Assembly: GCA_022712915.1 (NCBI GenBank)
Contig: JAFLJQ010000040.1
Span: 1-64,000, forward strand
DNA from: Gammaproteobacteria bacterium
Lineage (GTDB): Bacteria; Pseudomonadota; Gammaproteobacteria; UBA6429; Thiohalophilaceae
DNA: 64,000 nucleotides
Direction: 5' to 3'
In this document: positions 13,377-57,660 of the stretch, in pieces
How the letters are laid out: the number at the start of each line of letters is the position of its first letter
Position numbering within the stretch: position 1 is the stretch's first letter
Notes under the pieces: model-generated
The model's input: only the letters and a program-made list of their open reading frames with translations
Database searches by the model: none
What the model was told of the DNA's origin: nothing
Made by a program: the position numbers and the translations under genes

Positions 13377-13643
13377 ATATCAACCACACTTATATAATGG
13401 ATGTGTACCTCCGTTTACGACAGGAGAACAAATCCACGCTATAAATATCCATCAGACATTTTCACAAAAAAACATCGAAAACGGGGAATCCATGGCCTCC
13501 ACTTAGACTCTGTGCTACTGGTTAAATAGGCTATCAAGCAAAAATTTATCAGCAACATAATGGGTTATGTAAATTTATGTAATGTTATAACAGACTTTGC
13601 CGACACAACTTCTATACTTTATATCAAACAAAAAAACCTTGCT

Positions 13644-14270
13644 ATGACTACTACCCATACACAACAAACTGAAAGTAAATTTGTCGCACTAGCCAGCATT
13701 GCAGCAGAATTGTATTCCGTTATGACCGTCGCTTGGGGTGTATCCCTGGCTGCAAAAAATGCCAAAGTCATTTCAGCCCAGTCTGGCGAGAAAGGACGCG
13801 GATTCCAACCTATCACGGAATTTATCGATGAAATTGCACAACTAGCCATGACTGGGGTTAACGAAATAAACAACGAAGCCTTACAGCTAACCAAAATAGC
13901 TGTAACAGAATACCGCAATATTGATGCTTACCATCGTTTTGACTCCGTCAGAGAAAAAAATAGCAAAGCCCAATATATAAAATCTATGACACCCGCCATG
14001 AAACAAGTTGAACAAAACATGCAGCTCTCAACAAAAATATTCAAAAAAAGTTTAAGCAACCTAACCCAGCTACTTGAAACCATGGATGAATATATGTTGT
14101 CAGCACGCGCCATTGCATCTGTCTCACGAATTGTCACCTCCAACGCCCAGGAATATAGCAATCAACTCAAAGTTGTGGCAGATGACCTTGATCAAGCCGC
14201 CTCTTATATCAAGGATAAATTATCAGAAAGTTATCAACACTTAAACAATGTGAAAATGCAAACACACTAG
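13644..14270 (+). CDS. Small soluble chemoreceptor-like (MCP signalling domain) protein
   Basis: The 208-residue protein is almost entirely alpha-helical, with no membrane helix and no HAMP domain. Residues 33-68 (VSLAAKNAKVISAQS, then GEKGRGFQPITEFIDEIAQL) align with the hairpin tip of methyl-accepting chemotaxis proteins, where the conserved sequence is of the form [21 protein letters not shown]. The GExGRGF core is exact. Later residues form a long coiled-coil-like helix. I choose the ATG at 13644 (MTTTHTQ); an earlier in-frame ATG at 13560 would add 28 residues that resemble no receptor. The gene lies 28 bases before the ODP-like gene. I infer a cytoplasmic adaptor that couples the oxygen sensor to CheA; a phasin-like role was considered and is less likely. 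Confidence 0.65.
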   Translation: MTTTHTQQTESKFVALASIAAELYSVMTVAWGVSLAAKNAKVISAQSGEKGRGFQPITEFIDEIAQLAMTGVNEINNEALQLTKIAVTEYRNIDAYHRFDSVREKNSKAQYIKSMTPAMKQVEQNMQLSTKIFKKSLSNLTQLLETMDEYMLSARAIASVSRIVTSNAQEYSNQLKVVADDLDQAASYIKDKLSESYQHLNNVKMQTH

Positions 14271-14298
14271 TCGACATAAACTACCATCAGGGATAAAA

Positions 14299-15042
14299 AT
14301 GAAAGCAACAAAAATATTCGACCAGGGGCATCAGTGGTATATGTTTGGCCGGGATCCAGAAAAACCAGAAGGCATTATTGATACCAATCAGTATATGGTG
14401 GTAGCCGGTAACCGGGCATTGTTAATGGACCCCGGTGGTATTGAAGTGTTTGCCCCCATGCTGGGAGCCATCTTGCATCATGCCAACGTCGATCAAATCA
14501 CGGATCTGTTTGCCTCCCATCAAGATCCCGATATTATTTCATCGCTTGGTCTATGGGATCAGGCTCTACCAAATGCAAAGCTTCACGCACCCTGGATATG
14601 GGAGGGATTTATTCGGCATTTCGGCATGAATAACATCCAGTATGTGGCTATCCCAGATGAAGGCCATAACATCAGCCTTGGCTCAGTTGATTTTGAGCTT
14701 ATCCCGGCACACTACCTGCATGCCTCAGGCAATTTTAATGTCTATGACCGAAAAGCAAAAATATTAATGAGTGGTGATATTGGTGCAGCACTGGAATCAA
14801 GTGAATCCCCCCTGTTCGTGGAAGATTTCAATAAACATATTCCAAAAATGAAAATGTTCCATCAACGCTGGATGCCTTCAAACCGAGCCAAAAATGACTG
14901 GGTAAATCGTGTCCGTGAGCTGGATATTGAATACATGGCACCTCAGCACGGTAGAATATTTAAAGGCGACGATGTCAAACGCTTTCTTGATTGGTTTGAG
15001 GCGTTAGACGTTGGAATAGCGGTTCAATCAGAGGCATTCTAA
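14299..15042 (+). CDS. Oxygen-binding di-iron protein (ODP-like, metallo-beta-lactamase fold)
   Basis: The 247-residue protein has the flavodiiron metallo-beta-lactamase fold without a flavodoxin domain. Putative iron ligands are H74, D76 and D78 (ASHQDPDII), H141 (HYLHASGNF), D160 (SGDIGAA) and H217 (PQHGRIF). Their spacing matches the H-x-E/D-x-D...H...D...H set of flavodiiron proteins, with D replacing E at the second position as in ODP-type proteins. ODP of Treponema is known to sense oxygen and iron for chemotaxis. The preceding receptor-like gene makes the same role likely here. A di-iron hydrolase or oxidase is the alternative. Confidence 0.78.
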   Translation: MKATKIFDQGHQWYMFGRDPEKPEGIIDTNQYMVVAGNRALLMDPGGIEVFAPMLGAILHHANVDQITDLFASHQDPDIISSLGLWDQALPNAKLHAPWIWEGFIRHFGMNNIQYVAIPDEGHNISLGSVDFELIPAHYLHASGNFNVYDRKAKILMSGDIGAALESSESPLFVEDFNKHIPKMKMFHQRWMPSNRAKNDWVNRVRELDIEYMAPQHGRIFKGDDVKRFLDWFEALDVGIAVQSEAF

Positions 15043-47654: not shown

Positions 47655-48608
47655 CTAATGAGCAAGTCTAGATTGATCTTCCAATGTCTTAGGCAGGCGG
47701 AAAACCACCGATTCCTGACAACCTGATAGCTCCCGAACAATCTGCACACCTTTACCCTTAAAATTTTCCACTACTCGCTGCACAAGCAACTCGGGTACGG
47801 ATGCACCAGCAGTTATGCCAATGGACAGCTTGCCAGACAACCATTCTGGATTTATATCCTGCTCTTCATCAATCAAATAGGCAGCTGTACCCATTTTTTC
47901 AACCAGAAGCCTCAGGCTATTTGAATTTGAACTGTGCTTTGAACCCACCACCAATACGACATCGCACTGTCGAGCCAAATCTTTCACCGCCTGCTGGCGA
48001 TTTTGAGTGGCATAACAAATGTCATTGTCATCAGGGCCAATAATATTTTTAAATCGGGATTGCAGCACATCAATTATCGCCTTCGTCTCATCCACGGATA
48101 AAGTAGTCTGAGTGACATAAGCCAACTTATGTGTGTCTCTCACCTCAAGTTGATACGCATCCTTCACTGTTTCAATTAGGTAAGATTGGCTGCCGTGATG
48201 TGTATTCACATGTCCCTGGATGCCCACTATTTCTGCATGCCCAGGCTTACCGATAATAACAATGTCATAACCTCTCACCGACAGCTTATCAACCTGACGA
48301 TGAATTTTTGTGACCAGTGGGCAGGTTGCATCAATTACCATCAAGCCTCGTACTTCAGCCTGCTGATAAACATGTTTAGCCACACCATGCGCGCTAAAAA
48401 TAACAACAGAATCATCGGGTATCTCACATAGCTCGTTAACAAACACCACACCGCGACTGCGAAAATCTTCGATTATAAAACGATTATGAACTATCTCGTG
48501 ACGAACATAGATTAGCGGGCCATATTTAATGAGTACCTGTTCAACGATATTGATGGCACGACTGACTCCGGCGCAGAAACCACGCGGATTAGCAAGAGCA
48601 ATTTGCAT
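47655..48608 (-). CDS. ispH: 4-hydroxy-3-methylbut-2-enyl diphosphate reductase
   Basis: IspH makes IPP and DMAPP in the last step of the MEP isoprenoid pathway, using a [4Fe-4S] cluster. The 317-residue protein has cluster ligand regions ANPRGFCAGVSRAI, DATCPLVTKIH and NDICYATQNRQQAV, and the substrate-loop VGSKHSSNSNSL. Its position, transcribed away from a large cluster that encodes a prenyl diphosphate synthase and a geranylgeranyl reductase, makes a local isoprenoid theme notable. The start at 48608 (MQIALANP) is preferred over MIMQ. Confidence 0.95.
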   Translation of the reverse strand: MQIALANPRGFCAGVSRAINIVEQVLIKYGPLIYVRHEIVHNRFIIEDFRSRGVVFVNELCEIPDDSVVIFSAHGVAKHVYQQAEVRGLMVIDATCPLVTKIHRQVDKLSVRGYDIVIIGKPGHAEIVGIQGHVNTHHGSQSYLIETVKDAYQLEVRDTHKLAYVTQTTLSVDETKAIIDVLQSRFKNIIGPDDNDICYATQNRQQAVKDLARQCDVVLVVGSKHSSNSNSLRLLVEKMGTAAYLIDEEQDINPEWLSGKLSIGITAGASVPELLVQRVVENFKGKGVQIVRELSGCQESVVFRLPKTLEDQSRLAH

Positions 48609-48969
48609 AATCATCCTGTTTTGCTTGTTATATCCAATTTATGCCCAAGTCTTCCTCGGCCACAAAATGTAATTGGCTCACTTGAATATACATCAATCAT
48701 GACAAATTCGTCTAGAGGCATGGTAAGTAACACATCTATCAACAACTTCCCTCCTCCTTATTGACTACAGGGCTTGACTGTACTGCAAACACAGGCGAGG
48801 ATAAGGAGCTTTATAAAAACCGACAAGCTGATAATCACGCATTTAAAACAACAACAAAAACAGCCGCGAGTTAATTTATACTCAAAAATCAAAGCGCTGT
48901 AAATGATATCATCTGATTTTAAGTTTTAAAATTAATCCCTGCTTGTTGGGTGAATAATATAAGGGTGGA
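48609..48969. other. A+T-rich intergenic region with no gene seen
   Basis: This is a divergent region between ispH and the granule-like cluster. It contains 'ctccttat' and its inverse 'ataaggag' about 50 bases apart (48750-48811), two TTGACT runs that could be -35 elements, and a very A-rich stretch after 48840. I cannot place a promoter with confidence. I see no repeat copy. Confidence 0.4.
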
Positions 48970-49797
48970 ATGGAAATGGCCGTAAAAAAAACCAGTACCG
49001 AAAAAATACAAGCAAAGACAAAAAAGACTGGAACAACCCGTATCACAAAACGAAAAACCCAAACAAAAAAAACATCCTCTGACACCACATCAGACTCAAC
49101 GAAACAACAACATAATACCGAAACTGAAAACCCACAGGCAAAAGACAAAACCTCCGGTCAATCTAAAGACAAACCATCCGAAAACAATAAAACTGAAGCC
49201 TTTAACATCATCGAACAGGCTGCCTCTATTCTGGAGGAGGAAATTTCAGCCGGGATTATTGCCGCTAAAAGAGTGGAAGAACGTTATGTCGATGTCAATT
49301 CCTTGCGCACGGGTGCCCCCGAACATGTCATGCAACGCTTTCGCAAGGATGCCCATGAAGTGCTCGATATTATGCTGGACATGGTCAATCTCAGTGTTTC
49401 AGCACTAGGTGGCTTGAGTGAAAGGGCCATGTCCATCCGCAGCGGTACTGTACAAAAAAATGGCAATGATAACTTACCCGAACTCCTCGTACCCAAGGTA
49501 TTAAAACCCGGTGAATCGGGTCGCGTCAGTATGCTTGTTGAGAATGAAGAAGATAAAGATTCTGCCCCCTTCAAGTTTTCAAGCTCGGGCCTGCTGAGTG
49601 ATACAGGAGAACAACTTGATAGCAGCAATATTTCTTTTGTACCCGCAAACCTGCAAGTTGCAGCCAATGACATTGAGAAGGTCGTCATTAACGTTACTAT
49701 CCCAGAAACGGCCACAGCTGGACGCTATTCCGGTTTATTACAGGCTCCCGAGCTTGAAATAAGGGCTCTCCTAACCGTACAAGTTGAAAAAGAATAA
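48970..49797 (+). CDS. Cluster protein 1: basic tail, phasin-like helix and Ig-like beta domain
   Basis: This 275-residue protein has three visible parts. Residues 1-75 are very rich in Lys, Thr and Ser, with no signal peptide. Residues about 76-155 are helical and amphipathic (FNIIEQAASILEEEISAGII, then LDIMLDMVNLSVSALGGLSE), like a phasin. Residues about 170-275 form a beta domain (LKPGESGRVSMLVENE, then NVTIPETATAGRYSGLL). The same beta domain occurs in the cluster gene at 55537. 'aagggtgg' lies just before the ATG; a second ATG two codons on is also possible. It lies 28 bases before the prenyl synthase gene and is probably its operon partner. The function is unknown; a surface protein of a hydrophobic inclusion is my inference. 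Confidence 0.75.
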   Translation: MEMAVKKTSTEKIQAKTKKTGTTRITKRKTQTKKTSSDTTSDSTKQQHNTETENPQAKDKTSGQSKDKPSENNKTEAFNIIEQAASILEEEISAGIIAAKRVEERYVDVNSLRTGAPEHVMQRFRKDAHEVLDIMLDMVNLSVSALGGLSERAMSIRSGTVQKNGNDNLPELLVPKVLKPGESGRVSMLVENEEDKDSAPFKFSSSGLLSDTGEQLDSSNISFVPANLQVAANDIEKVVINVTIPETATAGRYSGLLQAPELEIRALLTVQVEKE

Positions 49798-49825
49798 GCC
49801 ACGCGGAGAATCTGGAAAATAAGTC

Positions 49826-50863
49826 ATGCAAGCAGACACTATCGAGTGGATAGAAAATTCACTAACCGAATACATGGACATGACTCAAAAGGCCATGTTG
49901 GACTATTTCCCGAACAAGGAACCACACCGCTACCTGTATGATCTGATCCCTTCGTACCCAAAGCGTTCTGGAAAAGGCCTGCGCCCCGGCCTGTGCATTG
50001 CAACATGTCACGCCTTTGGTGGTAGTACCCATTCGGTTATACGCACGGCCGCCGCCATTGAATTATTCCATAACGCCTTTCTTGTGCATGATGATATTGA
50101 AGATGGCAGTGAATTCCGCCGGGGACTGCCCACCATGCATAAGGAATACGGCATAGGCATCGCCATCAACGTCGGAGATGCCATGAATGTCTTGAGTATC
50201 CGTGCCCTGATGGATAATTTAAACAGCCTTGGCCCCAATCTGACCTGGCTGGTCTTTGCCGAAATTGAACACATGGTGCGTGAATCTGTCGAGGGCCAGG
50301 CGATGGAACTGGGTTGGGTGTGGGATAATGACGGCAAAATAACCGAAGCCGATTACCTGCGTATGATACTCAAAAAGACATGCTGGTATACCTGCATTCA
50401 TCCCTGCCGCATCGGTGCCCTGATTGGCTCAGGGGGAAGTGCTGATCTTGATTCATTCAACCGCTTTGCCTATTACATGGGAGCCGCTTTTCAGATCCAG
50501 GACGATGCCCTGAACCTGGATGGTGAACATGAGCGCTACGGCAAAGAAATTGGCGGTGATATCTATGAAGGCAAGCGTACACTGATGCTGATTCACCTGC
50601 TGAATAATGCCACACCCGCTGAATACCAGTACATCCTCAACTTTCTCGCCCTGCCGCGTAAAGATCGCAGTAGCTATAAGGTTACTGAAATCTATGAGCT
50701 GATGTTAAAATACAAAAGCATCAAGTTGGCACGAACCAAAGCTCGGCATCTTGCCGGTGCAGCACTACGAGAATTTCATATCGCCTATGGGCAACTACCT
50801 GACAGCAAAGATAAAAAACTCATTGAGAGTATTATTTTGTATATGATTGAGAGGGATATTTAG
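49826..50863 (+). CDS. Geranylgeranyl/polyprenyl diphosphate synthase family protein
   Basis: This trans-prenyl diphosphate synthase has 345 residues. The first Asp-rich motif is DDIED (residues 89-93) followed by GSEFRRG, the second is DDALN (226-230, within FQIQDDALNLDG), and KRSGKGLRPGL near 46-56 binds the substrate diphosphate. The second motif ends in N rather than D, as in several short-chain GGPP synthases. Product chain length cannot be set from sequence alone. The geranylgeranyl reductase encoded downstream makes a C20 product likely. The gene overlaps no other and is convergent with the reductase with a 2-base gap. Confidence 0.88.
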   Translation: MQADTIEWIENSLTEYMDMTQKAMLDYFPNKEPHRYLYDLIPSYPKRSGKGLRPGLCIATCHAFGGSTHSVIRTAAAIELFHNAFLVHDDIEDGSEFRRGLPTMHKEYGIGIAINVGDAMNVLSIRALMDNLNSLGPNLTWLVFAEIEHMVRESVEGQAMELGWVWDNDGKITEADYLRMILKKTCWYTCIHPCRIGALIGSGGSADLDSFNRFAYYMGAAFQIQDDALNLDGEHERYGKEIGGDIYEGKRTLMLIHLLNNATPAEYQYILNFLALPRKDRSSYKVTEIYELMLKYKSIKLARTKARHLAGAALREFHIAYGQLPDSKDKKLIESIILYMIERDI

Positions 50864-50865
50864 TC

Positions 50866-52344
50866 CTAACGAGTACTTCCATATCGTGTAGCAAGATCCT
50901 GATAGACATTCACAACCAGTTCTGATCCCCCCTTCACCACATCCTGTCCCCACTCTATGGATTCACGATAATGCTGTAAGGTCTCGACGCCCATACTAAC
51001 GCCGCCCCTGGCAATATCAAAACCACTATGCAGCGCCATCATTGGACGAGATACAGAATGAGCAACCGTATCAACTCCCAGCGATAGTGCAGCCTGTTTT
51101 AGGGTGCCCCCAATAATACGATAACTTAATAGATCATTGGCCGGCAACAAACCCGCCAACACCCCCCCCGTAATCGAGGTATATTCAGGACTCTGGCGCG
51201 CTGCGGCACCAATTATCTCGAGTGCTCGTAACCAAACAGGGTTAAATGTCCGGTTTCGGATGACTTGCACAATTAAAGAGGAAACAGCCATATCATACCG
51301 AAGCTCCTGCTCAAGCTGTTTAACATAAATGTTCAAAGCGGCCTGACTCAAATTATCATCCACCAATAATTTACCTGCGGCCTCCGCTGCCCAGCGCCCA
51401 CTTAATAAGGCGTACTGAATACCTTCTCCATTGAGCGGATTAATCAGACCCGCAGCATCACCCACCAACATAACTCTATCGCTGGTAACAGGTAGATGAT
51501 GATCATAGGTTGTCAGTGGCCAGCCATTAATCTTTGAAGACAGTTGGGCATTGGCCAGGCGTTGATGCAAGACCTTGTCTGTTTTCACCAGATTAAGTAA
51601 CAGTGATTTCAGGCCTAACTTACTGGCAGGGATCATTTTTGCCGCCACACCCACCCCGACATTTGCCCGTCCTTCACCCGTTGGGAATAACCAGCAATAA
51701 CCGGGAAAACTGGTTTTAGTGAAATAGAGATCAGCCCGATCCTGCGGCCCATCAACATCTTCAAAATAAGCCCGCACTGCGACAATACGATCCTTGTCTG
51801 GCGGTGAATAACCACGCACCGCACGTGCAATCATCGAATTACTGCCATCTGCTCCAATTAATAAACGTGTTCGGAAATAAAATGTCTGCTTGTTTGCCTT
51901 AGCGGTTACCGTGACACCATACTTGTCTTTATGTATGGCCGTAACACGATAACCTTCGCGGATTTCCACACCCGCATCAGCTGCTTTTTGAAAAATCCAG
52001 TTATCCAATAAAAGTCGAGGGATCACCCTTCCATGAGTAGGGAAACCGGTTATTTCAGGTATCGTTGCAGACACAAGTTCACGATTCTCCAGGAATGCCG
52101 AGGCATAGTTAATGATATTTGTTTGCGATTCGATGGCTTGCTCAGAAATACCAAGACGGGATAGTTCAAGCAATCCAACCGGCCCAACAAAGTCACCACA
52201 TATTTTATCCCTTGGGAAGTGATGTTGATCCAGGAGCAAGACTCGATGGCCCGATGTCGCCAAATGTGCCGCTGAAGCAGAACCCGCAGGCCCCGCGCCA
52301 ACAACTAAAACGTCACAATCATATGCCTGTGAAACTTTAACCAT
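50866..52344 (-). CDS. Geranylgeranyl reductase family flavoprotein
   Basis: The 492-residue FAD-dependent oxidoreductase has the dinucleotide-binding motif VLVVGAGPAGSASAAHL, then HHFPRDKICGDF, RLLIGADGSNSMIARAV, and MLVGDAAGLINPLNGEGI. These are features of the geranylgeranyl reductase (ChlP/GGR) family, which saturates isoprenoid double bonds. The final 100 residues are helical. The gene lies on the opposite strand to the rest of the cluster, with a 221-bp divergent region to the next gene. It could act on GGPP, on prenyl lipids, or on quinone side chains. Confidence 0.88.
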   Translation of the reverse strand: MVKVSQAYDCDVLVVGAGPAGSASAAHLATSGHRVLLLDQHHFPRDKICGDFVGPVGLLELSRLGISEQAIESQTNIINYASAFLENRELVSATIPEITGFPTHGRVIPRLLLDNWIFQKAADAGVEIREGYRVTAIHKDKYGVTVTAKANKQTFYFRTRLLIGADGSNSMIARAVRGYSPPDKDRIVAVRAYFEDVDGPQDRADLYFTKTSFPGYCWLFPTGEGRANVGVGVAAKMIPASKLGLKSLLLNLVKTDKVLHQRLANAQLSSKINGWPLTTYDHHLPVTSDRVMLVGDAAGLINPLNGEGIQYALLSGRWAAEAAGKLLVDDNLSQAALNIYVKQLEQELRYDMAVSSLIVQVIRNRTFNPVWLRALEIIGAAARQSPEYTSITGGVLAGLLPANDLLSYRIIGGTLKQAALSLGVDTVAHSVSRPMMALHSGFDIARGGVSMGVETLQHYRESIEWGQDVVKGGSELVVNVYQDLATRYGSTR

Positions 52345-52565
52345 TTTTATCTGTCCACGTCCTGTTTAAACTTAATTGCACATAGTATACCCATTTTATA
52401 AAATGCAGCAAAATGACTAACATTCATGTGCATGACCTCGTCTATTGACACATTAAAATCACCCGCGTATAAACAACTAAAGTGTAGGATTATGTCGCAA
52501 CAAAATACGCACCATTAATTAAGAACAATAACGATACAGTGGCCCATAAACTACGGCTCAAATAA

Positions 52566-53015
52566 ATGACAAACATTAAAAAACCTGTTTCATTTTATTC
52601 GTCCCATCAAGGACATTTTAAAATTTTATCCACAGATAATGACGCTGCCCAACATGTCTTGTTAAAAATCAAGACCCGATCATTACCTGAGCATCTAAAT
52701 CAACAATATTCCGACACTGTGTCCTTAAAAACACGGCAATATCACAACATATTACCAGAAACCAAATCAGCCGCTTCAGCCCATGAGCAACAACAATCTT
52801 TATCTGAACAAAGCGTATCTTCAGTTTCCCCCGCTCATGTCCTGTTAGAAACCTTGCCCACTCTAATTACGATTGGACGTGCCATTCTGACAACAAACTT
52901 TGTTCCCATACTTAACTCTGTGCATACTCAATTACAACATTGCAGTCGCAGCATACAACAACGACCCATCCCATTTAAAAACATGACGAGAAACGCTGAG
53001 CAACCCAATGGTTAA
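52566..53015 (+). CDS. Cluster protein 2: unknown with one hydrophobic helix
   Basis: This 149-residue protein has no signal peptide. The N-terminal 80 residues are polar and low in structure, with many Gln, Ser and His. A hydrophobic/amphipathic stretch follows (ETLPTLITIGRAILTTNFVP, about 97-118), then a short tail. I do not recognise it. It is the first gene of the + strand run after the divergent reductase. Its one-helix layout recurs in most members of the run. Confidence 0.55.
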   Translation: MTNIKKPVSFYSSHQGHFKILSTDNDAAQHVLLKIKTRSLPEHLNQQYSDTVSLKTRQYHNILPETKSAASAHEQQQSLSEQSVSSVSPAHVLLETLPTLITIGRAILTTNFVPILNSVHTQLQHCSRSIQQRPIPFKNMTRNAEQPNG

Positions 53016-53092
53016 TACAATGAAATATTGTCTGTTATACTGTCTGTACAAATAATCATCAGTACAGCCTAAATTATTTTTGGAGAATACAA

Positions 53093-53287
53093 ATGTCGGC
53101 AAGTATGTCGCTCAAAATTAGACTTGGTCCACTTGTTACACTTGAAGTTTCAGGTGATAACTGTGAGGAACTCAATGATGCTCTGGAAGGCTTTGAGCCA
53201 CTCAACAAACAAATTGACGCCATGTGTAGTGATCTCGCTGAACGCATGTATCCTGAACAAACTGACATAAATACGCAACCAGACTAA
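53093..53287 (+). CDS. Cluster protein 3: small 64-residue protein
   Basis: The sequence begins MSASMSLKIRLGPLVTLEV, continues with an acidic helix (CEELNDALEGFEPLNKQIDA) and ends DLAERMYPEQTDINTQPD. 'tttggaga' precedes the ATG, so initiation looks real. The predicted beta-hairpin plus acidic helix is compact for such a small protein. There are two cysteines. I do not recognise the family. It is nine bases before the next gene. Confidence 0.6.
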   Translation: MSASMSLKIRLGPLVTLEVSGDNCEELNDALEGFEPLNKQIDAMCSDLAERMYPEQTDINTQPD

Positions 53288-53296
53288 GGGTATAAC

Positions 53297-53764
53297 ATGA
53301 AATTTAAAGCCTATGCACAGATGAAGAGTTGCCCCGGTTTTGATTTGGTTACAAAATTTGATCCCCTCGATTTTGAAACAACCATCGGTGGTGCATTTCA
53401 GGCAAGGCTTGGCCCATTTTCGGCAGACATAAGTGAAATCCCTATTCGCATGACTATCCCATTCATGAAACGTTGCCACAGCCCCGTTATTGCCTCTATT
53501 GGCGGCATTAAACTAGGGCTTGATAGCTTCAATCTTAGTGTCGATAAAGTCGCCATGAATCTTAAAGGTGTGGTGGGGAAAGACGGAATAAAGGCCAACA
53601 TGCATGCCAAAGTAGATTGTGAAACGACCATGGAGGTTGATGGCATTGCCAGTGGACGTATTGGACTCTCACACCTGGATCTTGGCGGCGATGATGAACT
53701 CCCCGACCATCCAACACAGGCTTGTTGCGATAATAAAGACAAAGAAGATAAACACGGGAAATAA
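53297..53764 (+). CDS. Cluster protein 4: beta-rich unknown
   Basis: This 155-residue protein has no signal peptide and is mostly alternating beta strands (FKAYAQMKSCPGFDLVTKF, FNLSVDKVAMNLKGVVG, KANMHAKVDCETTMEVDG, GRIGLSHLDLGGDDEL). The C-terminus is acidic and Cys/His-containing (QACCDNKDKEDKHGK). It lies 9 bases after the preceding gene and 5 before the next, so it is in the same operon. The strand periodicity looks like a small barrel or sandwich. I do not recognise it. Confidence 0.65.
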   Translation: MKFKAYAQMKSCPGFDLVTKFDPLDFETTIGGAFQARLGPFSADISEIPIRMTIPFMKRCHSPVIASIGGIKLGLDSFNLSVDKVAMNLKGVVGKDGIKANMHAKVDCETTMEVDGIASGRIGLSHLDLGGDDELPDHPTQACCDNKDKEDKHGK

Positions 53765-53769
53765 ACCTG

Positions 53770-54459
53770 ATGGGCTCCCTACATCAATGCAGCTGCAGCC
53801 ACCTTCATACGCAACACAGTAAGGAATGCTGTCGCCAGATTGAATTAGCCATTGAACCGGCCACTGCCCATATCTATTTTTCAGATGAAGCTTATGTTGA
53901 TCCTATCAATACACAAACCCGATTTTTTGCCACCATTTTTAATAGCCATACTCATAATGTAAGATGGCAGTTAAACAATGCCAACGGCCGGCCTGCCATC
54001 GGTACCATTGACGCTTATGGGCTCTATACCGCGCCCAATAAAGGCATGCTCCCCAGTGGTTATACCGAGGTCATTACAGCCGTCAGTATTGAAGATCCCA
54101 CCCGGCGAGCCTGTGCACTCGTGACACTCCAGGGACACGGCCCTGCGCCCATCTCTAAGCCTCAAATCCAGATTTATCCCGGTGTCATTAGCCTTTATTT
54201 TCAGGACGGGACAAATAATGCCTATATGGATAGAAGCAATAAGACACAGCGCTTTCGCTACATGCTTAAAAACAGTCCTCTTGATGAAGTGGAATGGGTG
54301 ACCTCATACGGTACTATTGATCCAAATGGCCAGTACTTCACCCCACTAAGTGGCTCATCTACATCCACGGCGACAGTGACGGTCTCACTGAAACATGACC
54401 CGGCCATCAAAGATACCGCATTTGTGACATTGTTAAATTACACCTGGCCAGCAATATAA
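53770..54459 (+). CDS. Cluster protein 5: two Ig-like domains, Cys/His N-terminus
   Basis: This 229-residue protein starts with a Cys/His-rich stretch (HQCSCSHLHTQHSKECC) and then holds two Ig-like/BIG2-like beta domains. The first has VRWQLNNANGRPAIGTIDAY and GLYTAP; the second has VEWVTSYGTIDPNGQYFTP. Both show the W...G.ID..G.Y..P pattern of such domains. Proteins of this type are usually secreted, yet no signal peptide is present, so export would need another route. It may form part of an internal assembly instead. Confidence 0.7.
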   Translation: MGSLHQCSCSHLHTQHSKECCRQIELAIEPATAHIYFSDEAYVDPINTQTRFFATIFNSHTHNVRWQLNNANGRPAIGTIDAYGLYTAPNKGMLPSGYTEVITAVSIEDPTRRACALVTLQGHGPAPISKPQIQIYPGVISLYFQDGTNNAYMDRSNKTQRFRYMLKNSPLDEVEWVTSYGTIDPNGQYFTPLSGSSTSTATVTVSLKHDPAIKDTAFVTLLNYTWPAI

Positions 54460-54491
54460 TCACTGAAACTTAATGTTTAAGGAAGATTTTT

Positions 54492-55217
54492 ATGGCAACT
54501 GATATAAAACTAACCAGTCAGTCAGAGTTAAAAATAAAGGAAGTCAAGAATATTGACCCAGTTGGCATTCATATAAATGAAGTCAATCAGATCGCTCCTG
54601 TTGCGGTTCACCTGAAAGAGGTCAACCACATTGATCCTATTACCATTGATGATTTGCACATCAGTGAGGTAAAAAATATTGATCCGCTTAACATAGCGAG
54701 CTTTAATGTTACCAAGCTGCCCATGGTCAATGTAAGCTTGCAAAAACTCCCTGCTCTGGACGTAAACCTGCGGAATCTCCCACCAATATCAGTGGGGACA
54801 CATCAGACATTTTCCATCCCCTCAAACTATACCTTGCGAGCACGTTTTTTAGGTATCGAACTGGTTCGACTGAACCTTGAAGGCAAAACCTCCATCTTAC
54901 CCAGACAGCGCATACCCGTTGAACGATACAAAGATTTTAACAAAAGTTACAGCGAAACCCGCTTGGCAACTGAACCGGCCGCCCCGGTAAAATGTGCACA
55001 CACCACAACAAGAGTGAAAACCCGTTGTGTGCAACACACACATAGCCATCCCCCACAAGCACATCACAGTGGTGGAGCATCAAAGGCTTCATGTCAGCAT
55101 CACCCCATCAGCAAGGGGTCCTCATTGTCCTTTGGCACACCCTCGGCATCATTTAAGTTACATGATGAGCCAGTCAAATCAAACCTGTCTGAAAATCGCA
55201 TTACAAGTGGAGATTAA
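54492..55217 (+). CDS. Cluster protein 6: tandem 'EV-IDP' repeat protein with Cys/His tail
   Basis: This 241-residue protein has short repeats over residues about 13-75: KEVKNIDPVGIHI, NEVNQIAPVAVHL, KEVNHIDPITI, SEVKNIDPLNI. Each unit has a KEVxxIxP core spaced by 16-20 residues. Repeats of the form 'LP.V.VSL' and 'LP.L.VNL' follow, then a globular part, SNYTLRARFLGIELVRLNLE. The last 80 residues are rich in His and Cys (CVQHTHSHPPQAHHS). No signal peptide. The periodicity resembles a beta-solenoid or a scaffold that binds several partners. I do not recognise the family. Confidence 0.65.
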   Translation: MATDIKLTSQSELKIKEVKNIDPVGIHINEVNQIAPVAVHLKEVNHIDPITIDDLHISEVKNIDPLNIASFNVTKLPMVNVSLQKLPALDVNLRNLPPISVGTHQTFSIPSNYTLRARFLGIELVRLNLEGKTSILPRQRIPVERYKDFNKSYSETRLATEPAAPVKCAHTTTRVKTRCVQHTHSHPPQAHHSGGASKASCQHHPISKGSSLSFGTPSASFKLHDEPVKSNLSENRITSGD

Positions 55218-55218
55218 T

Positions 55219-55485
55219 ATGCACAATCAACATCCCTGTTGTCACCACAACCATCATCATGCCCACCGTCACTGTGCTACTCATGGCGGAATTGTTGGCG
55301 TATTAGGTGGCGTGATTAACTTAACAACCATGGCACTCTATGGCGGGGCCCGAATAATTCAAACCGTTGTTGACGGGGCAGCATGGCATGCTGATCACTC
55401 CCCTTATTCCTGTCACCAACATCATGGCCATCATCACCATGGAGATTGCAGGGTGGGGCATCATGACTGTTGTTGCCATGACTGA
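55219..55485 (+). CDS. Cluster protein 7: Cys/His-rich protein with a single hydrophobic helix
   Basis: This 88-residue protein contains about 22 His and 8 Cys. The two ends are almost only metal-ligand residues (HPCCHHNHHHAHRHC and CHQHHGHHHHGDC). Between them lies one hydrophobic segment, GGIVGVLGGVINLTTMALYG (about 23-42). The ATG is at 55219, one base after the stop codon of the preceding gene. This architecture suggests a membrane- or lipid-inserted helix with metal-binding ends on both sides. Metal binding is inferred from composition only. Confidence 0.7.
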   Translation: MHNQHPCCHHNHHHAHRHCATHGGIVGVLGGVINLTTMALYGGARIIQTVVDGAAWHADHSPYSCHQHHGHHHHGDCRVGHHDCCCHD

Positions 55486-55536
55486 TATGCCACATTTCCG
55501 ATATACTAAATTTGAATTTGAAGACGAGTAGATAAT

Positions 55537-56151
55537 ATGCCCGATCCAACCACCGAGACGACACCGGATGAAAACAAGCCGTCCCAACCCGACAATGGAA
55601 ACCAACCCCAGAGCCTGAGTCAGGTTGAAGCCATTGTCCATAAGGGCTTGGATATTGCCGAGGCCGGAATAGAGCTGGGGGTGAACATTGTCTCCCGCCT
55701 GGGTTTGATCCTCAAAAATCAGCTCGTTGACAATACCAATAACGTCAGCCAGGCATACCCTACCGAGGAATGTGCGCAGAATGAAACCAGTTCAACTGTG
55801 ACAGATGCAACCGAGGAATATTACCTGATTAACCGCCTAGCCCTGCATCCCGGTGATTCTGTTTCAATTTCCTTTTCCATGAACAATGATTCACTAACAG
55901 ACGAAAAAACCATTAGTCTCAGCCCTATTGATTTCAAAGGTGCTGAACATCATGTGGTGATCCCTGAAAGTAACTTCAGCATTAGTCCCGCATCTAAAAC
56001 TATAGCGCCCATTGATTTCGAAAAATTTATATTAACTGGCACTCTACCAGCAGATATCCCAGCAGACACCTACTATGGAAGCATTATTGTGGAAGACCAA
56101 ACGCAACATAAAATTTCTGCTGTTATTGTTGTAACCGCAGCCAATGCATAA
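55537..56151 (+). CDS. Cluster protein 8: phasin-like helix plus Ig-like beta domain
   Basis: This 204-residue protein repeats the layout of cluster protein 1: a polar N-terminus (1-28), an amphipathic helix (LDIAEAGIELGVNIVSRLGL, about 40-59), then a beta domain (about 95-204) with LHPGDSVSISFSMNND and TLPADIPADTYYGSIIV. The motif xDxEKxxxxxxxPxxxxAxxYxG is shared with the beta domain of the gene at 48970, so the two are probably paralogues. No signal peptide. 51 bases separate it from the previous gene. Confidence 0.7.
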   Translation: MPDPTTETTPDENKPSQPDNGNQPQSLSQVEAIVHKGLDIAEAGIELGVNIVSRLGLILKNQLVDNTNNVSQAYPTEECAQNETSSTVTDATEEYYLINRLALHPGDSVSISFSMNNDSLTDEKTISLSPIDFKGAEHHVVIPESNFSISPASKTIAPIDFEKFILTGTLPADIPADTYYGSIIVEDQTQHKISAVIVVTAANA

Positions 56152-56183
56152 TCAACACAGTTCAAAAATGGAGAGAACTTAAC

Positions 56184-56378
56184 ATGGCAATTAAAATACT
56201 AGGCTTTATGAATAAAGTTATCAATGATACAACAAGCAAAATTCTGGATGATCACGTCATTAATAAAATAACCAATGTGATTGGCACTTTTTTCACTTCC
56301 AGCGTTGAAACCATAAAAGAAGCAACAAAAGAAGAAGTGCCAACGAAAGAAGAATCAACACCAGAGTCCACTCCGTAA
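56184..56378 (+). CDS. Cluster protein 9: small amphipathic-helix protein
   Basis: This 64-residue protein has an N-terminal helix (MAIKILGFMNKVINDTTSK), a second one (INKITNVIGTFFTSSVETIK) and a charged Glu/Thr/Pro tail (TKEEVPTKEESTPESTP). The helices have one hydrophobic face, as in phasins and small granule-associated proteins. No membrane helix and no cysteines. 'gagag' precedes the start. It lies 32 bases after the previous gene. Family unknown. Confidence 0.6.
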   Translation: MAIKILGFMNKVINDTTSKILDDHVINKITNVIGTFFTSSVETIKEATKEEVPTKEESTPESTP

Positions 56379-56499
56379 CTTATTTTATTTAAGTTACAGA
56401 GTGTCCTTGTCTCATTAACAATTTAACAATATATGAGAAACTAAGGCTGCATAATTATTGACATTAAATATATTGCACAGAAAACAGGAAGACTAGACC

Positions 56500-57138
56500 A
56501 TGCATACACATCATTCACGCCATACTCATCACCATAGTTGTCAGGGCTGTGGCCACCCGATATCACAGTGTTGCTGTCATATGACGTGCAAACAAGTTGA
56601 TAGAGAGTTACTGGTAGAGGCTCAAACAAAGCAAGCAACGCCTGATGGCGCTGCTAGCGCTAGCACTCTGCAACTTTTATCCCAAACACAAAGAGTCACC
56701 CAGCAAGTGCTTAACATTATGCAAAAGGTTGATTTTTCCGGTATGGAAGAAAAAGATGTGGAAAAGGCGAGTCTTAATATTAATACGCCACAATTAGATC
56801 AAACTGCCACCCTGCCTCAACAATTTGAATTGCTGAGAAAACTGGTCACAGCATCCCGCCTGCCTATCGGGGCCGACACAGCCATTATCGGCGGGCTATG
56901 TTGCGTCAAATTGTCATTAGAGTATATGCCCATTTCACCCCTCGTCACACAACCATCATTTGTCGCGGTAAGCGTGATGGATAGTCAGGGAACAGTCATG
57001 GCCTGGGGGAAGATTTTTCAAAATGGAGATCATCAATATAAGGAAGCCATTATTACCGTTAATCCAGGGGCAAAATTAATGGCCGTAGCAGTCAATGCCA
57101 TCGGTCGGGTCAGATGGTGCGAAACCATTAGTTGTTAA
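56500..57138 (+). CDS. Cluster protein 10: Cys/His N-terminus, helix and beta domain
   Basis: The 212-residue protein starts MHTHHSRHTHHHSCQGCGHP and continues with further cysteines (ISQCCCHMTC), a probable metal-binding segment of about 30 residues. A helical part follows (QLLSQTQRVTQQVLNIMQKV, about 58-77), then a beta-rich region (LVTQPSFVAVSVMDSQGTVM and AIITVNPGAKLMAVAVNAIG, ending WCETISC). No signal peptide. A 121-base gap precedes it, so it may have its own promoter. I do not recognise it. Confidence 0.65.
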   Translation: MHTHHSRHTHHHSCQGCGHPISQCCCHMTCKQVDRELLVEAQTKQATPDGAASASTLQLLSQTQRVTQQVLNIMQKVDFSGMEEKDVEKASLNINTPQLDQTATLPQQFELLRKLVTASRLPIGADTAIIGGLCCVKLSLEYMPISPLVTQPSFVAVSVMDSQGTVMAWGKIFQNGDHQYKEAIITVNPGAKLMAVAVNAIGRVRWCETISC

Positions 57139-57168
57139 TTTTCACTCAATACAAACGGGACTCAAGCA

Positions 57169-57660
57169 ATGGAAAAAAGAATATCCAAAAAAAGTATACA
57201 AAAAGAATCCAAAATTGTTACCTCACAGGATTCATCTACGACCGACAGACCCGTTGATACCAATATGTCAAACGAGGCCACTTTCAGAACACCTGTAAGG
57301 ATGGCTGGGCCATCAATTTCGTCTTATCGGGATGTAACAACCAGACCAGGAAGACGGCCTGATGACAGGGTCGATATCGGCAATGCTATATCAAGCAATA
57401 TAGAGGGTATCTCAAGGTTGGCTGCGAAAATTATCCAGTCAACGCTCGCCAACACAAACGATATATTGAACGCCCTGACGGGCTCAAAGGAATACGAACA
57501 CAATGGTTGCAGTGATTCACATTGCTCCTGTCATCAAGAACAACATCATCCCTGTTGCCACGAAGATCATCATGAGCATTATCACGATAGCTGTTGTCAT
57601 GCCCAACATGGCGGGCACAGCTATGCAGTGTCACGTTGTAATAGTGTGCATGGTTGCTGA
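57169..57660 (+). CDS. Cluster protein 11: phasin-like helix with Cys/His-rich tail
   Basis: The 163-residue protein has a basic polar N-terminus (about 1-65), one amphipathic helix (ISRLAAKIIQSTLANTNDIL, about 83-102) and a C-terminal tail of about 50 residues dominated by Cys and His (CSCHQEQHHPCCHEDHHEHY). It unites the helix seen in cluster proteins 1, 8 and 9 with the Cys/His tail of 6, 7 and 10. No signal peptide. It is the last gene of the + strand run. Confidence 0.65.
   Translation: MEKRISKKSIQKESKIVTSQDSSTTDRPVDTNMSNEATFRTPVRMAGPSISSYRDVTTRPGRRPDDRVDIGNAISSNIEGISRLAAKIIQSTLANTNDILNALTGSKEYEHNGCSDSHCSCHQEQHHPCCHEDHHEHYHDSCCHAQHGGHSYAVSRCNSVHGC

Follow-up and report, generated by a model that had tools for sequence, protein, structure and literature searches.

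A prenyl diphosphate synthase and an adjoining helix/Ig-domain protein in a gammaproteobacterial gene cluster: a possible protein-coated isoprenoid compartment

The window analyzed here is the 64,000-nucleotide stretch of contig JAFLJQ010000040.1 (assembly GCA_022712915.1, positions 1 to 64,000) from a gammaproteobacterium of the Thiohalophilaceae. At 48,970 to 57,660 it carries a cluster of 13 genes: a geranylgeranyl diphosphate (GGPP)-type prenyl synthase (GGPPS, g2), a geranylgeranyl reductase (GGR, g3) and 11 small genes (g1 and g4 to g13). The initial annotation of this stretch had described 11 family-less small proteins around the two isoprenoid enzymes and proposed a lipid-inclusion or scaffolded-compartment system. 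All 13 genes were found at the positions given and, as had been noted, every gene except the reductase lies on the plus strand. Many spacings were said to be 1 to 51 bp; this is so except between g4 and g5 (77 bp) and between g11 and g12 (121 bp), with g1 and the synthase gene 28 bp apart. Below, the genome of the window is called G000 and locus contigs of other genomes have L-numbers (e.g. L127, L040, L034); L127 is a contig of a Gallionella metagenome-assembled genome (MAG). The genes are as follows.

47655 to 48614, minus strand: second, cluster-specific ispH (4-hydroxy-3-methylbut-2-enyl diphosphate reductase, 319 aa), 55% identical to the other G000 copy at C166:11336-12271.
48970 to 49797, plus strand: g1, predicted Lys-rich disordered N-terminus, helical hairpin (73-149) and PapD/MSP-like Ig domain (170-275) (AlphaFold, Foldseek).
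49826 to 50863, plus strand: g2, GGPP-type prenyl diphosphate synthase with motifs DDIED and DDALN (NCBIfam IdsA/GGPPS-type matches; own clade).
50866 to 52344, minus strand: g3, geranylgeranyl reductase family flavoprotein with FAD motif GAGPAG and FPGYCWLFP (TIGR02032).
52566 to 53015, plus strand: g4, 149 aa, single amphipathic helix near residue 115 (open reading frame only).
53093 to 53287, plus strand: g5, 64 aa (L127 copy 64% identical, order kept).
53297 to 53764, plus strand: g6, 155 aa, probably all-beta, with an acidic Cys-bearing tail (L127 copy 49% identical).
53770 to 54459, plus strand: g7, Cys/His N-terminus, then two similar Ig-like repeats judged from sequence (L127 copy 47% identical).
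54492 to 55217, plus strand: g8, I-D-P repeats, small beta motif (98-138), Cys/His-rich tail (L127 copy 53-55% identical).
55219 to 55485, plus strand: g9, 88 aa, Gly-rich hydrophobic helix between His/Cys-rich ends (8 Cys, 22 His; L127 copy 43% identical).
55537 to 56151, plus strand: g10, helix plus PapD/MSP-like Ig domain, g1 paralogue (G1-profile hmmsearch, HHalign).
56184 to 56378, plus strand: g11, 64-aa amphipathic helix protein, helical moment 0.53 (L127 copy 54% identical).
56500 to 57138, plus strand: g12, Cys/His-rich N-terminus and a C-terminal domain ending in RVRWCE..SC (L127 copy 36-40% identical).
57169 to 57660, plus strand: g13, amphipathic helix, Cys/His-rich tail (L127 copy 30% identical, position kept).

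Searches of the small proteins against Pfam, NCBIfam and PHROGs gave sub-threshold noise at most (g9 and g11 were each covered by part of these), in line with the description of the proteins as family-less. No signal peptide was evident in any of the 11, again as had been described, and no transmembrane-like stretch was found in them (best 19-residue Kyte-Doolittle mean ≤ 1.52). A single amphipathic helix occurs in several of them and Cys/His-rich ends in five, features that the initial annotation had recorded correctly. Scans for promoters, terminators and short repeats returned nothing informative.

The synthase g2 gave NCBIfam matches to IdsA/GGPPS-type models (E to 9e-57), all under the curated cut-offs, and is 70-80% identical to the synthases of L034 and L040. 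Its catalytic residues, namely the DD of DDIED and of DDALN and K50, R53 and H82, were all invariant in comparison with four relatives. Judged by both Asp-rich motifs and these residues, g2 fits a GGPP-type prenyl diphosphate synthase. The reductase g3 belongs to the geranylgeranyl reductase superfamily (TIGR02032, 221 bits, cut-off 158.8) and is 52-56% identical to its relatives; against the model of the menaquinone reductase MenJ it scored 157.7 bits, under the cut-off of 700. Both enzymes resemble their archaeal and plant counterparts in family and motifs. They differ in context, as no (geranyl)geranylglyceryl phosphate synthase was seen in G000: the sole PcrB match was a 50-residue stretch of an apparent tryptophan synthase alpha. 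This gives no indication of ether lipid synthesis of the archaeal type, and that candidate was dropped.

We scanned 84,980 species genomes for the synthase and obtained 79 loci, which together with two plasmid records gave 81. A g1-type gene lay within 150 bp of the synthase gene in 59 of these, directly upstream on the same strand in 52. By comparison, none of 28 housekeeping prenyl-synthase loci from the window's own family had a g1-type gene. The GGR gene was present at 32 loci, every one of which also had g1. Judged by record titles, the carriers belong to Pseudomonadota, Bacteroidota, Balneolota, Chlorobiota, Gemmatimonadota, Myxococcota, Thermodesulfobacteriota, Actinomycetota, Chloroflexota and Cyanobacteriota, with MAGs labelled Bacillota and Bathyarchaeota in addition. 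This makes about 12 phyla, with several carriers being MAGs that are possibly mis-binned. Massilia rubra, Chitinophaga barathri and an Aequorivita are carriers available in culture. Two MAGs labelled Bathyarchaeota (L042, L049) have the pair with similar neighbours and are either archaeal carriers or mis-binned contigs. In the tree, the synthases of the system form a clade apart from housekeeping enzymes (SH-aLRT 99); the window synthase has its nearest neighbours in two MAGs, one betaproteobacterial and one gammaproteobacterial, and joins those of other phyla next. A search for g1 in 368 further genomes of the class found none, and the cluster is accordingly of scattered occurrence even in close relatives. 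The tree pattern and the absence from congeners suggest that the system spread horizontally. The window carries such a system, that is, a g1-type helix/Ig gene adjoining a GGPPS of this clade. A published description of it was not found in the open-access literature subset.

The small-gene array could be compared with that of Gallionella. On L127 the order is GGR (minus strand), g5, g6, g7, g8, g9, g10, g11, a short g12 paralogue, g12 and g13. Protein identity between the two arrays is 30-64% for g5 to g13, and mismatch rates by codon position are 0.60-0.71 at the third and 0.20-0.44 at the second position (for g5, 0.22/0.20/0.69 at positions 1/2/3). This concentration of mismatches at the third position points to selection on the protein, and by this pattern the small genes are real genes. 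The Gallionella g1 and GGPPS genes (the latter product 79% identical to the window's) lie on a separate contig, L040, with a thiolase gene after them. The expectation that the small genes would be tied to prenyl genes in conserved order was thus borne out for g5 to g13 with GGR and for g1 with GGPPS. It failed for g4, which had no homologue in L127 or the other loci examined and is without support outside G000. Neither scattered homologues nor matches to unrelated known systems, the two outcomes named beforehand as speaking against the proposal, were seen. If the orphan genes were merely chance neighbours of two isoprenoid genes, the lack of a g4 homologue and the confinement of the array to two genomes would be expected, but a nine-gene order that persists next to GGR in a different class, its coding sequence under selection, and a g1–GGPPS linkage spanning about 12 phyla would not; this reading is largely refuted and we give it next to no weight.

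Other searches with the small proteins found little. A scan of genome contigs with g6 gave no match, g8 was not found in 57 relatives nor in 199 other genomes of the order of genome G405, and viral contigs gave no match. Six of the nine weak matches of the g8 profile were f3small genes, which adjoin g1 elsewhere, and HHalign scored g8 against f3small at 29.0 (best of 60 shuffles, 24.7; probability 13%); the suggested homology is a lead only. We do not claim kinship of g6 with the Bacteroidota family f9 (HHalign E 0.03, low probability; weak and unproven) or of g13 with f8 (E 0.003, low probability).

The initial annotation had taken ispH next door as the source of precursors. This stood but was understated. 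The housekeeping ispH of G000 is the copy on C166, which has homologues in relatives; the cluster gene is therefore a dedicated second ispH. An extra cluster-side ispH also occurs in G025, three Massilia and two deltaproteobacteria, making seven genomes of three lineages with the window's. That the step leading to isopentenyl and dimethylallyl diphosphate (IPP/DMAPP) has been recruited repeatedly argues for a product made in bulk rather than for trace prenylation. Two observations concern individual copies. The cluster-side ispH of G025 (C20; L034:10881-11371), at a contig end, falls into two frames with stops TGA and TAA and is decayed, fragmentary or mis-sequenced. In L046 and L047 the cluster-side relative is divergent (about 26-27% to the window's) and separate from the genome's other ispH, which is part of a frame about 600 codons long.

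We next consider the proteins that accompany the synthase. An AlphaFold model of g1, built with 36 relatives, predicts a helical hairpin (73-106 and 117-149) and a confident Ig domain (predicted local distance difference test score, pLDDT, about 97), for which Foldseek found PapD, ASH and MSP-type domains closest. The fold is thus that of MSP/PapD-like proteins (VAP, ASH); the difference is that g1 and g10 are bacterial, hairpin-fused, genetically tied to a prenyl synthase and without a signal peptide. g10 was found by a G1-profile hmmsearch (E 1.5e-14), with an HHalign E of 1.4e-11 for the Gallionella copy, and on this profile evidence is a paralogue of g1. The claim that modules are shared within the locus accordingly held for these two proteins.

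We call the g1 hairpin phasin-like on account of its shape and amphipathicity; neither g1 nor g10 matched the phasin Pfam family, and a Bacteroidota relative of g10, f11, reached only E 0.1 against Phasin_2. No polyhydroxyalkanoate (PHA) synthase (PhaC_N, PF07167) was found in G000, whereas the Caulobacter control gave a match, so the phasin-like parts do not indicate a PHA granule, and that reading is unsupported. What the system shares with phasin-coated PHA granules is small soluble proteins that bear an amphipathic helix or hairpin and are proposed to coat a surface; the differences are the missing PhaC_N synthase, the tie to isoprenoid enzymes and the attached Ig domain.

Related loci fall into five architectures. 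The first, that of the window and Gallionella, has g1–GGPPS, GGR and the small-gene array. The second, in other proteobacteria, Gemmatimonadota and some Bacteroidota, comprises f6 (PolA-thumb-like), a giant protein of about 1200 aa, f3small (a short relative of the giant's C-terminal part), g1, GGPPS and often GGR. The third is the Bacteroidota order f9-f7-f8-f11-g1-GGPPS-GGR, in which f7, f8, f11 and g1 have Ig-like domains in common; here, too, modules are shared within a locus, with four helix/Ig proteins stacked before GGPPS–GGR. The fourth, in Ruegeria, Acaryochloris, Rhodobacter relatives and some Actinomycetota, combines adenylate cyclase, encapsulin, a DUF3237 protein, an HpnE-like flavoprotein, GGPPS and usually g1. 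The fifth, in Micromonospora and Chloroflexota, is a short g1 with GGPPS only. As an aside, f6 (L034:9753-10661, minus strand; L045:4336-5052; 11 other loci) scored 38.5 bits against PF00476, above cut-off, and resembles a short DNA polymerase I stretch without the other polymerase parts, an odd domain for an isoprenoid cluster.

The N-terminal 630 residues of the giant were modelled with a mean pLDDT of 82. The top Foldseek matches were TULIP proteins (CETP, BPI, LBP and P47/OrfX-type; E 4e-11 to 6e-6), with weak matches to juvenile-hormone- and carotene-binding TULIPs lower down; the TULIP class includes isoprenoid binders in insects. A lipid-binding protein class therefore recurs beside the same enzyme pair. 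Compared with known TULIP lipid-transfer proteins (BPI, CETP, P47/OrfX type), the giant has the same fold; it differs in its PKD domains and its linkage to GGPPS–g1, and it was not found in the window. Ig-like domains, together with the PKD domains of sister loci, are typical of surface proteins, and the Ig, PKD and Cys-rich proteins might form an extracellular layer or stalk whose lipid carrier or anchor would come from the isoprenoid enzymes. With 11 proteins devoid of signal peptides and transmembrane segments and no secretion genes in the locus, we consider this very unlikely.

An encapsulin-family shell protein was found near the synthase in 11 loci, of which nine also had a G1-type match, and the encapsulin of the fourth architecture scored 84-91 bits against PF04454 (cut-off 24.3). 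In L032, L084, L085, L077, L099, L101, L116 and others, the six genes of this architecture, g1 included, stand in one operon. A sister branch of the window's GGPPS clade thus adjoins a family 1-type encapsulin. The small proteins might themselves close into a shell, the counterpart of that encapsulin, with GGPPS and GGR as cargo and no lipid core. This would agree with the nine loci, for example in Ruegeria and Acaryochloris, where the GGPPS–g1 pair lies beside encapsulin, and with the match of g2 to the family 2 encapsulin cargo polyprenyl transferase model, under its cut-off. It is improbable, since the small proteins match no recognised shell family and vary greatly among loci, and no family 1 encapsulin (PF04454, HK97-fold) was found in G000, where control genomes gave matches; a family 1 encapsulin reading of the window's genome is thus unsupported. 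A search of G000 for the family 2 shell (SrpI-like, PF19307) gave no match, but the control search was equally silent. Polyprenyl transferase is a cargo of family 2B encapsulins (Andreas and Giessen 2021, PMC8346489), which likewise couples a prenyl diphosphate synthase to a protein compartment. In the part of that survey consulted, this cargo is named for family 2B only, whereas the shells linked here match the family 1 profile, and a g1-type partner is not mentioned.

A membrane-anchored metabolon needs more serious weighing. Here g1 would be a scaffold or accessory subunit tying GGPPS, with GGR and the second IspH, to the inner membrane; the product would be a membrane lipid of the usual kind or the side chain of a quinone, the small proteins would be scaffold parts, and there would be no inclusion. 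The amphipathic hairpin is equally suited to membrane docking, the smallest conserved unit is g1 plus GGPPS alone (Micromonospora, Chloroflexota), and the MenJ score of g3, under its cut-off, points the same way. Left unexplained are ten extra soluble Cys/His-rich proteins, the Ig/helix stacks, the TULIP giant and the encapsulin branch; moreover, G000 already holds two housekeeping prenyl synthases besides g2. On balance we regard the metabolon as an unlikely but substantial alternative.

Our preferred reading, to which we give about an even chance, is a cytoplasmic, protein-coated isoprenoid-lipid compartment with its own precursor supply. The cluster's own IspH would raise IPP/DMAPP supply, the synthase would make a chain of about C20 and GGR would saturate it, partly or fully. 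The phasin-like hairpins of g1 and g10 may adsorb on the hydrophobic product or on the enzyme assembly, so that their Ig domains face outward as a docking platform, on which g4 to g9 and g11 to g13 would build a cytoplasmic coat or matrix, in which metal or disulfide links through Cys/His would probably provide stiffness. The lipid and compartment theme of the initial annotation is upheld by the g1 hairpin, the TULIP fold in sister loci and the encapsulin beside the same pair elsewhere; the inclusion, its contents and the coat role are what we infer from these.

Several points weigh against this reading. The evidence for an inclusion, its lipid and a protein–lipid contact is indirect. The g5 to g13 array was found in two genomes only, and in Gallionella it lies with GGR on a different contig from the GGPPS–g1 pair. 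The short helix protein of Micromonospora and Chloroflexota could be a simple enzyme partner of the synthase. The TULIP giant is known from sister loci and not from the window, structural models exist for a minority of the small proteins, and surface proteins commonly have Ig and PKD domains.

More tentatively, and with the chances somewhat against it, the loci may represent a widespread prokaryotic organelle type, isoprenoid-filled and protein-coated. Its defining components would be a GGPP-type synthase together with a coat protein of the phasin-hairpin/MSP-domain type, and the outer layer would be interchangeable from lineage to lineage: small Cys/His proteins, TULIP/PKD giants, Ig-protein stacks or an encapsulin shell. 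If so, many unrelated bacteria would make and package isoprenoid lipids by an unnoticed common route that has a precursor enzyme of its own and a modular protein coat. The few bacterial organelles recognised so far would gain another member, encapsulins would be connected with phasin-like coats via one enzyme pair, and the genes would form a set that is tractable and testable heterologously. Even the weaker reading yields an unannotated, conserved prenyl-synthase partner family in about a dozen phyla.

Elsewhere in the window, at 13560-15042, a 236-aa helical protein adjoins a protein with a metallo-beta-lactamase (ODP-like) fold, both judged by eye.

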